From the IMG/VR virus record IMGVR_UViG_3300036857_000285, positions 1-38,886 of that record: a stretch of DNA of 38,886 nucleotides; one strand, written 5' to 3'. The notes beneath the pieces were generated by a model. That model had not been told where the DNA came from, did no database searches, and was given only the letters and a program-made list of their open reading frames with translations. Of the stretch, positions 17,179 to 23,504 are shown in pieces; position 1 is the stretch's first letter, and every line of letters starts with the position of its first letter. Source of the DNA: a virus. The translations under genes and the position numbers were made by a program.

Positions 17179-17371
17179 TTGTAGCCTCGTACGCGCGAGC
17201 GCGCGTGCTACGCGCGGGGGAGGGCGGGGGAGAGGGGGTGAGAGAGAGAGGTAGAGAGAGAGATGTATATCTATATATATCATATATATAACAGAAGCAA
17301 ATCCTTCATACTAGAGAAAAAAATTTCTAGAGGGCTTGGGTCGCTTCCGCCCGCCCTCGCGCGCGAGGTGG

Positions 17372-17394
17372 AGACTGGCTTGTGGTGCGGTGAG
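17372..17394 (+). repeat. Dispersed 23-nt element, copy C
   Basis: AGACTGGCTTGTGGTGCGG followed by TGAG aligns without gaps to the other four copies, with five or six differences from copy E. It is the most diverged copy and lies between the origin-like block and the 17552 promoter. Confidence 0.55.
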
Positions 17395-17646: not shown

Positions 17647-18090
17647 ATGGAAGTTCCGACCCGCAAGATCAGGGCCGAGGCCAACCGCCCCGGCTTCTCA
17701 GGTCTCGAGATCACGAACACCGAACTCGGTGACCGTGTGGAGGCCGCCCTGGCGGCGAAGCTCGGCTGGACGCCGCTCGTCGGCCCGGCGGCGGGCCGCG
17801 CCCGCCAGGGAGCGTTCGACCTCATTGACGAGAACGGCATGTACGTCGAGGTCAAGGCGGTGAGCGTTTTCGCCAAGGAGTACAAGATCAAGTCCGGCGC
17901 TCGCGCGAACACCCGCAAGACCAACTTCGGCAACGGCCACGGCGTCAAGTTCGGGACCGTCATGGCGATCGTCGAGCAGCGCCCCAACGGCAAGCTGAAG
18001 GCGTGGCTCTACCGGCGCGAGGGTGTCGGCTGCTTCCGCCTCGGCGCTGACGGGCTGGGTTGGGAGTTCGTCGGGAAGGTGACGGTCTGA
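17647..18090 (+). CDS. PD-(D/E)XK nuclease-like protein
   Basis: ATG 17647 follows GGAGGG by 7 nt; 147 residues. The core QGAFDLIDENGMYVEVKAVS gives Asp58 and Glu68-x-Lys70, the D...E-x-K active-site pattern of PD-(D/E)XK nucleases such as Hjr, Mrr and many restriction enzymes. A helix with an acidic residue (GDRVEAALAAKLGW) precedes it, as in that fold. The C-terminal half has strands and basic residues (KIKSGARANTRKTNFG). Whether it is a junction resolvase, a restriction-like endonuclease or a helper is not decidable. It lies 670 bp upstream of the CA/TG-free zone and has normal CA/TG content itself. Its own promoter is at 17552. Confidence 0.65.
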   Translation: MEVPTRKIRAEANRPGFSGLEITNTELGDRVEAALAAKLGWTPLVGPAAGRARQGAFDLIDENGMYVEVKAVSVFAKEYKIKSGARANTRKTNFGNGHGVKFGTVMAIVEQRPNGKLKAWLYRREGVGCFRLGADGLGWEFVGKVTV

Positions 18091-18481: not shown

Positions 18482-18504
18482 GGACTGGCTCATGGTGCCG
18501 TGAG
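18482..18504 (+). repeat. Dispersed 23-nt element, copy D
   Basis: GGACTGGCTCATGGTGCC then GTGAG; differs from copy E by one base. Preceded by an AT-rich patch and followed by a GCATGAA...TTCATGC inverted repeat that separates it from copy E. Confidence 0.7.
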
Positions 18505-18533: not shown

Positions 18534-18556
18534 GGACTGGCACATGGTGCCGTGAG
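18534..18556 (+). repeat. Dispersed 23-nt element, copy E
   Basis: GGACTGGCACATGGTGCC then GTGAG. The inner GGCACATGGTGCC is a perfect 5-bp inverted repeat with a 3-nt loop. Immediately downstream is a second hairpin, GTGAAAC-AAG-GTTTCAC. Confidence 0.7.
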
Positions 18557-18862
18557 CTCGGTAGGTGAAACAAGGTTTCACACGCCAGCGCCCACGCCCA
18601 TGCCCCTACCCACACTCATGCCCCTCCTCATGCCCAGGGCGCTGCCCACGCCCCTGGTCGTCGCCCTGCCCCTGCCTTTGCCCCTACCCCTCTGCCGGCC
18701 CGCTACCCGCCGGCCGCTAAGGCCCCTTCCCGCGCCCCGCTCCGGCGCCCCGCTAGGCTGCCTTCCCGTACCCCGCTTAGACCGCCGGCCCGCTAACCGG
18801 CCTAACCCTAACGGGGGTAGCGGCCCGGCCGCTAGGAGCTCCCCGCTAACCGGCCTTCGCGC

Positions 18863-18898
18863 TACCCCTCGCCGCGCCCCTACCCCTCGCCGCGCCCC
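18863..18898 (+). repeat. Direct tandem repeat, 2 x 18 bp
   Basis: TACCCCTCGCCGCGCCCC occurs twice in tandem at 18863-18880 and 18881-18898, followed by a diverged TACTCGTACCCCTC. It lies inside the CA/TG-free zone. Confidence 0.9.
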
Positions 18899-19361
18899 TA
18901 CTCGTACCCCTCTTAGCGACGAGCCCCTAGCGGCCGGCCGCTAACCCTACCTACTAACCGGCCTTCCGGCCGCTACGCGAAACCCTACCCTCCGCTTTTC
19001 GTCGCCCCGAAAGAGGGGTTAGAAAAGTAGGCGATTTCCGGCTAGCGGTCGTTCTAAGGCGCGTTCCGGTCTTAGTCGGTCCGATCGTCCTAGCGAACCC
19101 CGAACGGCGCTTAGAACGAACGGAAGGCGGCTCTACGGCGATCCTCGCGTTCGGGCCGTCCGCTAAGCGGGGTTCCCGTACCTAGGTACGGACTTTCGCT
19201 CCTCCGCTTCGCCTCTCGCGCGGGCGGAGTAACCCCGCTTAGGGGATAGGAAAAAGCCTATCCCGAAGACTACCCTTTCGAGAAGTACGGTTCCGACGCC
19301 GGGTAGCCGATACTTAGGGCGTCGGGAGAAACGGTCTCCCGCTAACGAAAGAAGGGTTACG

Positions 19362-20072
19362 ATGGGACGAAAGAAGAACGAGACGGGCGAGCGGACGCTT
19401 ACCCCGGTCGAGACGACGATTTTCGAGCGGTACGGTCTCCGCCCGGACTTCCCGACGGGCGCGGCGCTTCGGAACTCCGGTAAGGCGCTCGCCGAGATCC
19501 GCGACGCGAAGGGCGCGAAGTGGGACGATATCGGAACCCTCGTTAGCGGGAACCCCGAGCGGCCCGTCTCGGCGATTACCCTCCGCGTCCCGTACCGCGC
19601 TTTCCTCGCGTCGAACGAGAAGGCGCGGGCGGCGGCGGTCGAGAACGGGAAGGCCGACCTAAGCGCCCTTCCGGCGGACGGGCCGACGATCGTCGCCGAG
19701 CGCGACGGGCGCGGCGCGGGCTTCCCGCTCCTCGCCGTCCGTACCGGCCTTACCGAAGCGGACGTTCGCCGCCTCTACGTCGCGGCGGGCGGCGAGTCGG
19801 TCGACGGTCGGATCTACGTCGCGGCGAGCGGGGCGCGTACCCTCGTTCTCCCGAACGGCGAGCGGAAGGCGCTCGCGCCGTTCGACGCGAAGGCCGCTAA
19901 GAAGGCCGCGAAGAAGGCCGCTAAGCGGGCTTCCGAGAAGGCGGCCGCCGTCGCCGCCGAGCCCGCGCCGACGGTCGACGCCGACGCCGAGAAGGCGGCC
20001 CGTAAGGCCGCTAAGAAGGCGGCGAAGAAGGCGGCGAAGAAGGCGGCCCGGGCCGCCGAGAACGCCGCTTAG
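19362..20072 (+). CDS. Histone H1-like tailed protein encoded without CA/TG; no His, Gln or Cys
   Basis: ATG 19362 follows GAAAGAAGG; 236 residues, TAG stop. Residues 1-165 are a mixed domain with segments such as TIFERYGLRPDFPTG, SAITLRVPYRAFLAS and LTEADVRRLYVAAGG, family not recognised. From about 167 to the end is a Lys/Ala-rich tail built from AAKKAAKK repeats, like histone H1 or bacterial Hc1/AlgP tails, so non-specific DNA binding is likely. The protein has no His, Gln or Cys, one Trp and only the initiating Met, exactly the residues whose codons need CA or TG. Leu never uses CTG or TTG, Val never GTG, and Ala never GCA. Hairpins lie just before (19323-19341) and after (20081-20106) the gene. 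It may package or mark the surrounding DNA; that is inference. Confidence 0.8.
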   Translation: MGRKKNETGERTLTPVETTIFERYGLRPDFPTGAALRNSGKALAEIRDAKGAKWDDIGTLVSGNPERPVSAITLRVPYRAFLASNEKARAAAVENGKADLSALPADGPTIVAERDGRGAGFPLLAVRTGLTEADVRRLYVAAGGESVDGRIYVAASGARTLVLPNGERKALAPFDAKAAKKAAKKAAKRASEKAAAVAAEPAPTVDADAEKAARKAAKKAAKKAAKKAARAAENAA

Positions 20073-20080
20073 GGGCGACG

Positions 20081-20106
20081 CTAGGGCCGCCTACGGGCGG
20101 CCCTAG
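20081..20106 (+). terminator. Hairpin after the CA/TG-free gene (11-bp stem, TACG loop)
   Basis: CTAGGGCCGCC at 20081-20091 pairs perfectly with GGCGGCCCTAG at 20096-20106. It begins 9 nt after the gene's TAG stop, so it is a likely terminator of actinobacterial type without a U-tract. It contains no CA or TG. Confidence 0.65.
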
Positions 20107-20218
20107 TAACCCGGGTTACCGCGCCCCGCGCCTCCCGCCTCGTTCTCGCTTTCTAACCGAACTCGCGAGCGGAAGAACCGAGAGGGGACGCGACGGTTCG
20201 CGCGCGGTACCCGGGTAC

Positions 20219-20246
20219 GCGGCCGGCCGGTTTACGGGCCGGCCGC
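20219..20246. other. Boundary hairpin of the CA/TG-free zone (10-bp stem)
   Basis: GCGGCCGGCC at 20219-20228 pairs with GGCCGGCCGC at 20237-20246 across an 8-nt loop. The next two bases, 20247-20248, are the first TG after the zone, so the stem's outer edge coincides with the compositional boundary. Confidence 0.8.
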
Positions 20247-20431
20247 TGTCGGGAGGGCGCTGCCGCTGTAACCTCCCGTGTCCTCCAAAACCCCACCTCT
20301 CCACGCGAGGTGCCCCACGCGGCACCGCCCCGACACCCCGCCCCAACCCCCCAACCCCGCTCAACTCTCAATTTACTAGATTCAGGTGTCTCTACGCGCG
20401 CGCGTTATGCACCACTCCGAAAAATTTGTTT

Positions 20432-20592: not shown

Positions 20593-21060
20593 ATGGGAAC
20601 AACCGGTACTGAAGTCAGCATCAGCATCAGCACCGAGCTAGCTGAGGCAACGTTACAAGCCCTCGCTCAGTTCCCAAACGCCGACCCCGTCAAGCAGCTG
20701 CTTTACGCGGTGCTGCACAGCAGACAAGCACTCGATCGCCTGGACAAGGCGGTCCGTAAGCAGCTCAAAAGGCAGAAGGGCGCTCCCGATCCGCTCTACT
20801 TCACGCCGGTGGGACAGTCCCTCGCCGACGCCCAGCACCGAACACGCGCCCAGCTGGGTATCCTAGCCAAGCAGTACATTGCGCTGGGAATCGAGGAACG
20901 GCAAACGAGGGTGATCGAGGACTGGTCGAACATCCTCCTCCCGTTCGTCACTCAACTCATGGACGACCCGGACCTTGCCCTGACCAGAAGGCAAAGGGAG
21001 AAGGTCCCAATGGTCGTCGAGCGCCACCTTCGCACGCTGGAGCGCCCCGAGCTAGGCTAG
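20593..21060 (+). CDS. Putative small terminase subunit
   Basis: ATG 20593 follows GGAAAGG; 155 residues, almost entirely helical and charged (ALDRLDKAVRKQLKRQ, LADAQHRTRAQLGILAKQY). Size, helical content and location (first late gene, one gene before TerL) fit a DNA-recognising small terminase subunit. No helix-turn-helix signature is decisive, so the assignment rests mainly on position. The candidate packaging region would be the 520-bp gap upstream. Confidence 0.5.
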   Translation: MGTTGTEVSISISTELAEATLQALAQFPNADPVKQLLYAVLHSRQALDRLDKAVRKQLKRQKGAPDPLYFTPVGQSLADAQHRTRAQLGILAKQYIALGIEERQTRVIEDWSNILLPFVTQLMDDPDLALTRRQREKVPMVVERHLRTLERPELG

Positions 21061-21088: not shown

Positions 21089-21919
21089 GTGCTCTCGAAC
21101 AACACACGCCCAATCGCGCTTGACATCTGCTGTGGTGCCGGTGGTGCCAGCATGGGCCTGTGGCAGGCTGGTTTCTTCCCGGTCGGGCTGGACAACAGGC
21201 AGGCTCCTCTGAAGCACTACCCGTTCAGCCACATCCTCGCCGACCTCCTCGACGTCGACATTCCGCTGCTCGTCGAGCAGATAAAGCCAAGTTTGATAAT
21301 CGCCGGGCCACCCTGTCAGGGCTACTCAGACAGCGCAAGCCTTCGGAACGGCAGACCAGTAACGACCCGCAGAAAGAGCGAGGCCCACCCGCCGCAGAAC
21401 CTCATCCCCTATCTGCGAGCACAACTAAACACGCTCAGCAAACAAATCCCCTTCATCATCGAGAACGTCGAGGGTGCCGAGGCCGAACTGATCCCCAGCC
21501 TGACGATTCGTCTCTGCGGCTCATCCTTCGGGCTGAGGGTCCGTCGGCATCGCCTGTTCGAGTTGCATCACATCAGCTTAGCCAACACACACGTCCCGCG
21601 CTGCGACCACAAGTGGCAAGAGGACCTTCCGCTGTACGAGAACAACAGAAGTAGGCCAACGGGCATCATTCAGGTCTTTGGCACAAGCAGTAAGGGCATC
21701 AAACTCCGTAATCCAGCTAACCGCACACAGACACAGACGGAACTCGCCAGGGTGGCGATGGGCATAGACTGGATGCCTGCACGCGACCTCTCGCAGGCCA
21801 TCCCGCCCGCCTACACGCGATACCTGGGCCGTCAGGTCATTAGGCAACTCCCACAGCCAAGTGCGGCCAGTGCGAGCCGGAATGGGCACCGGCCGAGGCT
21901 AAGGTTGGTTCATGACTGA
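21089..21919 (+). CDS. DNA (cytosine-5) methyltransferase, orphan
   Basis: A 276-residue C5-MTase. Motif I is DICCGAGGASMGLWQAGF at about residues 12-29, motif IV IAGPPCQGYS with the catalytic Cys near 76, motif VI FIIENVEGA, motif VIII RRHRLFE, and motif X PPAYTRYLGRQVIRQL. The target recognition region between VIII and X is short. These enzymes flip out a cytosine and transfer a methyl group from S-adenosylmethionine; the target sequence cannot be read from the gene. Start GTG 21089 has no clear ribosome binding site. It is inserted between the putative small terminase and TerL and overlaps TerL by 8 nt. No cognate restriction enzyme is adjacent. It likely protects phage DNA, and its proximity to the CA/TG-free zone is notable. 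Confidence 0.88.
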   Translation: MLSNNTRPIALDICCGAGGASMGLWQAGFFPVGLDNRQAPLKHYPFSHILADLLDVDIPLLVEQIKPSLIIAGPPCQGYSDSASLRNGRPVTTRRKSEAHPPQNLIPYLRAQLNTLSKQIPFIIENVEGAEAELIPSLTIRLCGSSFGLRVRRHRLFELHHISLANTHVPRCDHKWQEDLPLYENNRSRPTGIIQVFGTSSKGIKLRNPANRTQTQTELARVAMGIDWMPARDLSQAIPPAYTRYLGRQVIRQLPQPSAASASRNGHRPRLRLVHD

Positions 21920-23504
21920 CATCGGCCACGTCGGTGCCCCTCCCGGGCTGGCGCTGCAGATCCGGCAGCAGCTCGACGCGCGCCGCCAGACACAGCGCTG
22001 GGTGAGAAACCCGACGGGCTGGCTAATCAACAACACCACAGCCCGCTTCTGGTCCAAGCAGAAGGAGATCGCCAACGCGCTCGTCCGGCACCCCCGTGTG
22101 ACGGTCCGGAGCGCACATGACACAGGCAAGAGCTTTACTGCCGCCCAGCTGACGGCTTGGTGGCTATCCGTCCACCCACTCGGCTCGGCCTTCGTGGTCA
22201 CTACCGCTCCCACGGCCCCGCAGGTTGAGGTCATTCTGTGGAGGGAGATTGGCAAGGTCAAGCGCCAGGCCAATCTCCCCGGACGGATCACCTCCGGGAA
22301 CATCCCGAAATGGAAGTCCCCGGCCGACGAAATCATCGCCTACGGCAGGAAGCCGGCAGACCTCAAGAATGCCCAGGAGGCGGGTCAGGCCTTCCAGGGT
22401 ATCCACGCACGGTACATCTTGGTCATCATGGACGAGGCTTGCGGCATCCCCGAATGGCTTTGGAACGCCGTCGAGACGATCGCCACTAACCAGTACGCTA
22501 GGGTGCTGGCCATCGGCAACCCCGATGTGCCCGAAACGCCATTCGAGCGGACCCATCTCCCCACCTCCAGATGGCACAGCATCAAGATCAGCGCCTTCGA
22601 CACGCCGGCCTGGACCGGCGAGGATGTCCCAACCGCCCTCCTGACGGATCTGGTCTCCCCGGAGTGGGTCCAAGCACGAAAGGATGAGTGGGGCGAACAG
22701 AGCCCGCTCTACAAGAGCAAGGTCCTGGGTGAATTCCCCGAGGTCAGCGAGGAGACGCTCATTCACCCGCGCCTGATTCAAATGGCGCAATTCCTGGACA
22801 GAACCCAAGAAGCACTGAGTGAACCCGGAACGTTCGGGCTGGACGTCGCACGGAGCGCGAACAAGAACGAGAACGCTTGCTACAGAAACAGAGCAGGCCA
22901 TCTTCGATTGGAGTTCGCGAACTATGAGCCCAACACGATGCGTACTGCCGGTCGGGCGGTTCGGCTTCTCAACCGAACTGGAGGCAACGCTGATATGGTC
23001 GTTGATACCGTCGGAGTTGGCGGCGGTGTCTACGATCGACTCAGGGAGCAGAACTTCCCCGTCAAGCCGTTCGTCGCCTCAGAAGCCCCCAGTACGCCCA
23101 CGAACAAGAAGCGGTTCGTCAATAGGCGCTCTGAGCAGTGGTGGAACTTCCGCAAGATGTTCGAGCAAGCACTCATCGACCTCCCGCCGCAGGGAGAGGA
23201 CGACAAGCTGATCAGTCAGCTCCTCTCGATCAGATACCTGATCAGAAGCGACGGGAAGATCATGGTCGAGAGCAAGGAAGACATGGAGGACAGAGGGCTA
23301 CCATCACCGGATCGCGCCGACGCCGCCATGATGGCGTGTGTCAACCAGGTCACTTTGTCCGGCGACTTCTACATCCCGCCGCCCCAAAGCTTGAAGGCAC
23401 AGCTCGGCATCACTACCCCCGATCCGACCAACATCCTGACGGACCTTGGCATCCCGGCGGACCTCCAGGGCTTGACAGGCGACCTCCTCACGAAGCAATG
23501 GTAG
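21912..23504 (+). CDS. terL: Terminase large subunit (ATPase and nuclease)
   Basis: A 530-residue packaging motor. Walker A is SAHDTGKSF near residue 68, Walker B ILVIMDEACG near 172, followed by an AIGNP coupling-type motif. The C-terminal RNase H-like nuclease has FGLDVARS near 311, VDTVGVGGGVYD near 360 and PDRADAAMMA near 466, supplying the metal-binding acidic residues. It translocates DNA into the prohead at the portal and cuts unit genomes. The first 8 nt overlap the methyltransferase gene. Full length for the family. Confidence 0.93.
   Translation: MTDIGHVGAPPGLALQIRQQLDARRQTQRWVRNPTGWLINNTTARFWSKQKEIANALVRHPRVTVRSAHDTGKSFTAAQLTAWWLSVHPLGSAFVVTTAPTAPQVEVILWREIGKVKRQANLPGRITSGNIPKWKSPADEIIAYGRKPADLKNAQEAGQAFQGIHARYILVIMDEACGIPEWLWNAVETIATNQYARVLAIGNPDVPETPFERTHLPTSRWHSIKISAFDTPAWTGEDVPTALLTDLVSPEWVQARKDEWGEQSPLYKSKVLGEFPEVSEETLIHPRLIQMAQFLDRTQEALSEPGTFGLDVARSANKNENACYRNRAGHLRLEFANYEPNTMRTAGRAVRLLNRTGGNADMVVDTVGVGGGVYDRLREQNFPVKPFVASEAPSTPTNKKRFVNRRSEQWWNFRKMFEQALIDLPPQGEDDKLISQLLSIRYLIRSDGKIMVESKEDMEDRGLPSPDRADAAMMACVNQVTLSGDFYIPPPQSLKAQLGITTPDPTNILTDLGIPADLQGLTGDLLTKQW

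Follow-up and report, generated by a model that had tools for sequence, protein, structure and literature searches.

The 38,886-bp IMG/VR virus record IMGVR_UViG_3300036857_000285 (the window, to whose full stretch all window coordinates refer) contains a 1486-nt island at 18761-20246 from which the dinucleotides CA and TG are almost completely absent. The island is a real, conserved and selected dinucleotide ban on one phage locus, and the ban is kept by purifying selection on the double-stranded DNA, not on the protein. The locus would consist of an inferred control region, the gene for a predicted helix-turn-helix (HTH)-type DNA-binding protein, and 3' hairpins. We tentatively propose, with a probability of roughly 0.4, that it is kept free of sites for a DNA enzyme recognising CA/TG, most likely the phage's own C5-cytosine methyltransferase.

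A phage locus without CA and TG

A direct count of the island gives no CA and two TG, where the base composition of the zone predicts 88.8 CA and 70.4 TG, or 159 in total. The recount agrees with the first-pass annotation, which had drawn attention to this interval. One TG belongs to the ATG start codon (19363) and the other to a Trp codon, TGG, at 19521-19523. The log10 Poisson probability of 0-2 CA/TG is approximately -65. Outside the island, CA/TG-free runs in the window reach at most 70 nt, and the maximum in 200 simulated first-order Markov genomes is 97 nt. Chance and composition are ruled out as the cause of the island by this probability of about 1e-65 and by the Markov genomes. The flanks had been described as rich in both dinucleotides, and each 500-nt block away from the zone is close to its CA/TG expectation.

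The edges had been described as sharp and unlike the product of drift, and the analysis supports both points. At the right, the edge is exact, with a TG at 20247 directly after the last base of a perfect hairpin; the left edge is slightly blurred, the final CA lying at 18647 and TGs at 18655-18693 and 18759. Approximately 174 nt of CA/TG-free DNA extends downstream of the island gene. Most of the other dinucleotides are explained by a quasi-independence model that forbids CA and TG alone. By way of contrast, a 301-nt stretch without AA/TT in another locus (L065 3668-3969) is an ordinary low-complexity repeat of the GGCGTA/GGCGTC type.

The ban acts on DNA and is maintained by selection

Synonymous recoding of the island gene with the codon usage of the window (20,000 trials) yields 57.6 +/- 5.9 CA/TG, with a lowest value of 36. 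The synonymous-codon simulation for the corresponding gene of a sister phage, L003, described below, yields 49.3 +/- 5.5. The observed counts, 2 in the window and 1 in L003, are the theoretical minimum for each protein. Across codon boundaries, CA/TG is absent from both genes, against 26.2 expected in the window and 29 in L003. An absence forced by protein composition is rejected by the simulation and the codon boundaries together. The non-coding DNA on both sides also obeys the ban, including the DNA upstream of the inferred promoter. Because the ban covers codon boundaries, the inferred promoter, upstream DNA and the 3' hairpins, it acts on DNA, and symmetrically on both strands, as had been claimed from the first reading.

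Simulated rejection of CA/TG-creating mutations at a background GC of 0.62 predicts a GC of 0.66, with 5.6% TA and 7.7% AA+TT. The values observed in the non-coding part of the island are a GC of 0.66-0.67, 6.7-7.2% TA and 9.2-9.7% AA+TT. The rejection model reproduces the base composition of the island, both its raised GC and its levels of TA and AA/TT; a CA-to-TA mutator does not.

A diverged island in a sister phage

Relatives were found by a search with the large terminase subunit (TerL). One of them, L003, is another metagenome record (3300036835_000303), with a TerL 86% identical to that of the window. At its left end, the same locus holds an 863-nt island that lacks CA and contains a single TG. 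The two island genes agree at 64% of aligned residues, with 168 differences over 573 aligned bases. Since one third of random single changes would create a CA or TG (45-49% among transitions) and the genes have diverged, the ban must have operated in each lineage ever since the two separated. In both phages, the right end of the island is the last base of a hairpin (20246 in the window; 940 in L003, hairpin 913-940).

The single TG of L003 (375) lies in the same conserved Trp codon as in the window. Between the upstream stop (213) and the body of the L003 gene there is no in-frame ATG, GTG, TTG or CTG, and the ATG of the window aligns with ATT. The L003 gene appears, from this alignment, to start with ATT, which is among the start codons that NCBI lists for table 11. 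All three retained TGs (window 19363 and 19521; L003 375) sit in the octamer TGGGACGA. Two of these cases are the same conserved Trp-Asp codon pair. In the remaining one, the start codon precedes GGA CGA, two codons that the island gene rarely uses, and TGGGACGA may be a setting that tolerates TG. A perfect 18-bp inverted repeat, GGTGATACGTTCCACCGG, adjoins the left side of the L003 island at 17-54, and the contig breaks off beside it.

In the more distant relatives L004-L008 (TerL ~70%), a related gene occupies the corresponding position. The copy beside the small terminase subunit (TerS) has 73-81 CA/TG in the genes tested (L004, L006 and L007), an ordinary count. The first-pass annotation had asked whether a homologue of the gene at 19362 would stand in a CA/TG-free segment elsewhere. 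This is so in L003, but the related genes of the five other relatives have normal CA/TG, and the island was rejected as a general property of the gene family. A second copy of the related gene lies ~1.3 kb upstream in L004-L008. This first paralogue shows a mild CA/TG dip, with observed/simulated ratios of 0.64 (L004), 0.65 (L006) and 0.79 (L008). The dip was rejected as a weak form of the ban because codon boundaries are undepleted (24 vs 27 expected in L006, 29 vs 29 in L008), and it is probably a matter of codon preference. One further candidate relative, L002, was discarded as a chance peptide match. INPHARED, GTDB genomes and further IMG/VR contigs yielded no homologue.

The island protein

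The 236-aa island protein contains no His, Gln or Cys, a single Met (the start) and a single Trp. Its predicted structure, with a predicted local distance difference test (pLDDT) score of 69, comprises two HTH-like units, a β hairpin and a basic tail of KAAK repeats. The predicted helices, together with weak Pfam HTH matches among the homologues in the relatives, point to an HTH-like protein. The protein itself has no Pfam, PHROG or PADLOC match, and fold searches with it returned nothing significant.

Proposed explanation

The ban is best accommodated, in our tentative proposal, by a regulator locus that is modification-free (or enzyme-proof) through its own sequence, set against a genome-wide dinucleotide-specific DNA enzyme, probably the phage's own cytosine methyltransferase. 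A CA/TG step arising in the locus would become a substrate for a DNA enzyme whose recognition site is CA/TG itself or a short motif containing it, and purifying selection would remove each such step from the double-stranded DNA. The locus would stay unmodified or uncut, while the CA/TG-rich rest of the genome would be modified or tolerant. The methyltransferase encoded at 21089-21919 would place 5-methylcytosine (5mC) in CA context, leaving the island as the sole methylation-free stretch. Modification at the locus would then harm the phage, either by blocking the HTH-like protein or its promoter, or by exposing the locus to 5mC-dependent nucleases. We infer here that the agent is an enzyme, that the enzyme is this methyltransferase, that it has CA specificity and that modification does harm.

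As the ban overrides codon choice and excludes His, Gln, Cys and, in one phage, the start codon, the agent must act on single CA/TG steps. In both island phages, the window and L003, TerS and TerL flank a methyltransferase of family PF00145, which in the window scores 28.3 bits (cut-off 22). It was not detected in the records of the five more distant relatives (G002-G006), two of them ~56 kb. The methyltransferase is thus seen in 2/2 island phages and 0/5 relatives without an island, but other methyltransferase loci lack islands. It is the leading candidate on the strength of this one correlated difference, which falls short of proof. Among the causes suggested in the first-pass annotation, selection against a hypothetical CA/TG-recognising enzyme agrees best with the findings.

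Several observations weigh against this explanation. The link with the methyltransferase amounts to one gain common to two sister phages. The CA specificity is hypothetical, and the PDB sequence matches of the methyltransferase are only HaeIII methylase and a cytosine-specific methyltransferase. No other island was found in the 74 viral loci retrieved with the methyltransferase as query (one is L003, the others have more distant methyltransferases), nor in the Arthrobacter phages Beagle and Pointis, in which a C5 methyltransferase stands directly before the terminase gene. An island as a general property of C5-methyltransferase phages was rejected on these grounds, and therefore either the specificity differs or the link is accidental. 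AT is depleted in the window island (14 vs 30 predicted), which the ban does not predict; in the L003 island, where 15 are present and 17 predicted, it is not depleted in this way. Finally, the explanation gives no reason why the ban should extend over the whole 0.9-1.5 kb, including the gene body, and not just a binding site.

The Beagle and Pointis loci are L099 6529-8873 and L100 6743-9072, and the annotated Pointis gene covers only part of the methyltransferase. No hypermodification enzyme was recognised among the scanned window genes, and a search for a Tet_JBP oxygenase gave no match in either island phage, though the control search likewise found nothing. At 17647-18090, the window encodes an orphan 147-aa protein in which a PD-(D/E)XK-like motif, FDLI...YVEVKA, is discerned by eye. 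This protein was not found in L004-L008, IMG/VR or INPHARED, the L003 contig ending before the corresponding position, and its structure prediction reaches a pLDDT of only 32. It may act as a nuclease alongside the methyltransferase.

Alternative explanations

The island may instead be an early-entering segment, the first DNA into the cell, bearing a protective gene and purged of the targets of a host nuclease or of a modification-dependent restriction enzyme. Sharp edges, adjoining terminase genes, a promoter-like element of its own and a single small DNA-binding protein would suit such a segment, as would a ban that is local and leaves the remaining genome unprotected; antirestriction genes that enter first are established (PMC3874165). 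However, no physical genome end is seen, and the window contig runs through the island. The contig ends of the relatives are scattered over unrelated positions around TerL, which suggests circular permutation and lends no support to a fixed end at the island. For a host nuclease, a target of two bases would be without precedent, and the island protein is basic, unlike an acidic DNA mimic. We consider such a segment unlikely.

A nucleoprotein or structural need is more doubtful. It would require that the HTH/KAAK protein, or the packaging or replication machinery, assembles over the locus and is disturbed by CA/TG steps. The CTACCG repeats of L003 and L004/L008, the GTAC-N4-GTAC palindromes of the window and relatives, the HTH-like protein and the adjoining terminase genes could all belong to such an assembly. 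The origin or packaging structure suggested from the first reading is supported only circumstantially, by the inferred control region, the direct repeats and palindromes upstream of the HTH-like gene, and the terminase neighbours. Yet the island is rich in TA, another flexible pyrimidine-purine step, related proteins exist with normal CA/TG loci, and a structural preference is expected to be graded, not absolute.

Ranking below this is avoidance at the RNA level, by which a transcript without CA and UG would be spared by an RNase or RNA-modifying toxin to which other mRNAs succumb. The right edge falls at a hairpin end in both phages, as the end of a transcript might, and the unit contains exactly one gene. 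The island, however, continues past the inferred promoter on its upstream side, by ~550 nt in the window and ~130 nt in L003. For a rule on single strands, two unrelated dinucleotides would have to be banned that are coincidentally reverse complements. In addition, the lost ATG of the L003 gene should lower its expression. This reading is improbable.

The targeted C-to-T process at CpA, also put forward in the first-pass annotation and akin to fungal repeat-induced point mutation (RIP), would have erased CA and TG by mutation. The RIP index for CpA/TpG loss is 0.01 in the island vs 1.1 outside, but such extreme indices largely follow from the ban itself, quasi-independence predicting a TA/AT of ~2.5. 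Full conversion of the flanking DNA would produce 215-242 TA and a GC of 47-50%, whereas 70 TA and a GC of 69% are observed, and simulated hypermutation at a background GC of 0.62 leads to a GC of 0.34 with 20% TA. Of the 30 Leu/Val codons that the window gene contains, one is CTA/GTA, and the L003 gene has none of these; the codons used are CTC/CTT and GTC/GTT, unlike the CTA/GTA left by C-to-T at CpA. With regard to the duplicated DNA and gene inactivation of RIP, the island protein has one match within the window record, and the open reading frames (ORFs) are intact in both phages. TA counts, GC, codon use and simulation together contradict this process, which is rejected as the main cause and very improbable in any case. 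An assembly artefact or chance has a negligible probability, the former ruled out by two IMG/VR records with diverged islands, homologous genes and a shared gene order, the latter by its value of ~1e-65.

Features of the locus and its surroundings

In the window, replication genes (exonuclease, Sak4-like, primase/helicase, DnaE-type polymerase and ThyX) are followed by the island, the putative TerS, the C5-cytosine methyltransferase, TerL, portal and protease (Table 1).

Table 1 Features of the island and adjoining genes in the window.
Feature	Coordinates	Strand	Basis
Left-edge transition, no CA, six TG	18648..18760	.	dinucleotide counts
CA/TG-free island, 0 CA, 2 TG	18761..20246	.	dinucleotide counts
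Palindrome GTACCTAGGTAC (GTAC-N4-GTAC)	19178..19189	.	sequence; relatives have GTACAAATGTAC / GTACGAATGTAC upstream of related genes
Promoter-like GCCGATACTTAGGGCG	19306..19321	+	inferred from alignment only
Purine-rich ribosome-binding site AAAGAAGGG before start codon	19348..19356	+	sequence
Gene for 236-aa protein	19362..20072	+	ORF; codon and structure analysis
First 3' hairpin, 12-bp stem, after gene	20080..20107	+	sequence
Second GTAC-N4-GTAC palindrome GTACCCGGGTAC	20207..20218	.	sequence
Hairpin GCGGCCGGCC-GGTTTACG-GGCCGGCCGC; final base is the island's final base	20219..20246	+	sequence
Putative small terminase subunit (by position), first gene right of island	20593..21060	+	phrog_3678 (unknown function)
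C5-cytosine DNA methyltransferase	21089..21919	+	GPPCQG, ENVEG motifs; PF00145
Large terminase subunit (TerL)	21912..23504	+	query in the search for relatives

The island's control region is similar to that of the relatives' upstream copy, including a GCCGATAAT-type promoter sequence. The promoter-like GCCGATACTTAGGGCG aligns with GCCGATAATAGGGGCG in L003 and, in L004/L008, with the GCCGATAATAAGGGCG that stands upstream of the first paralogue. CTACCG repeats at 21-nt spacing, three of them in L003, are matched upstream of the first paralogue in L004 and L008. The relatives' TTACCATG corresponds to TTACGATG in the window and TTACGATT in L003, the CA within it being GA in both island phages. The GTAC-N4-GTAC palindrome is seen in the window, L004, L006 and L008 but not in L003, and the only two such sites of the window both lie inside the island.

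Left of the island, ACTGGCNNRTGGTGCSGTGAG occurs three times in the window (17374-17394, 18484-18504 and 18536-18556), where chance predicts none. The copies, which precede the 17647 gene and the island, are a possible phage promoter or operator; the sequence was looked for in L003-L008 and not found. A short microsatellite stretch of GA and TA repeats occupies non-coding DNA before the 17647 gene (17233-17292).

Significance and comparison with known systems

No counterpart of a locus-wide dinucleotide ban was found in the literature searched or in the sequence collections, and we know of no phage or bacterial locus with an absolute dinucleotide ban over promoter, gene and 3' region in a genome otherwise free of it. 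Once identified, the agent would represent either a new dinucleotide-specific DNA enzyme with a locus exemption or a new kind of counter-defence. If the proposed explanation is true, a phage gave up even its ATG start codon, in L003, to keep a regulator locus enzyme-proof. A long run without one word is a simple signature by which genomes can be scanned for other such loci.

The first-step-transfer DNA of phage T5 is site-free. Antirestriction genes that enter the cell first include gene 0.3 (ocr) of phage T7 and ardA of conjugative plasmids (PMC3874165). Like the island, these are local protected segments with a gene of their own in genomes whose other parts are unprotected. They differ in avoiding specific multi-base targets, whereas the island avoids one two-base word, absolutely, at one locus and with no genome end shown. 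Fungal RIP shares with the island the loss of CpA/TpG and the rise of TpA/ApT (PMC2621366). The island departs from it in having no C-to-T excess, a GC that goes up and not down, an intact gene, and codon replacements that are not TA products.

Dinucleotide-directed enzymes are associated with phages in two further settings. Phages M6, ViI and phi W-14 hypermodify the T of TG/TC (PMC6449724). Methyltransferases specific for GpC or CpG, or with multiple specificities, are described as frequent and as being encoded in the genomes of hosts or phages (PMC11347163). An island free of the relevant dinucleotide would escape modification by enzymes of this kind. To our knowledge, no case of a sequence-encoded modification-free island has been described. 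Vertebrate CpG islands are similar in being methylation-free stretches of distinctive dinucleotide content that lie over a promoter and gene. They keep the target and escape the enzyme, whereas the phage island removes the target word itself.
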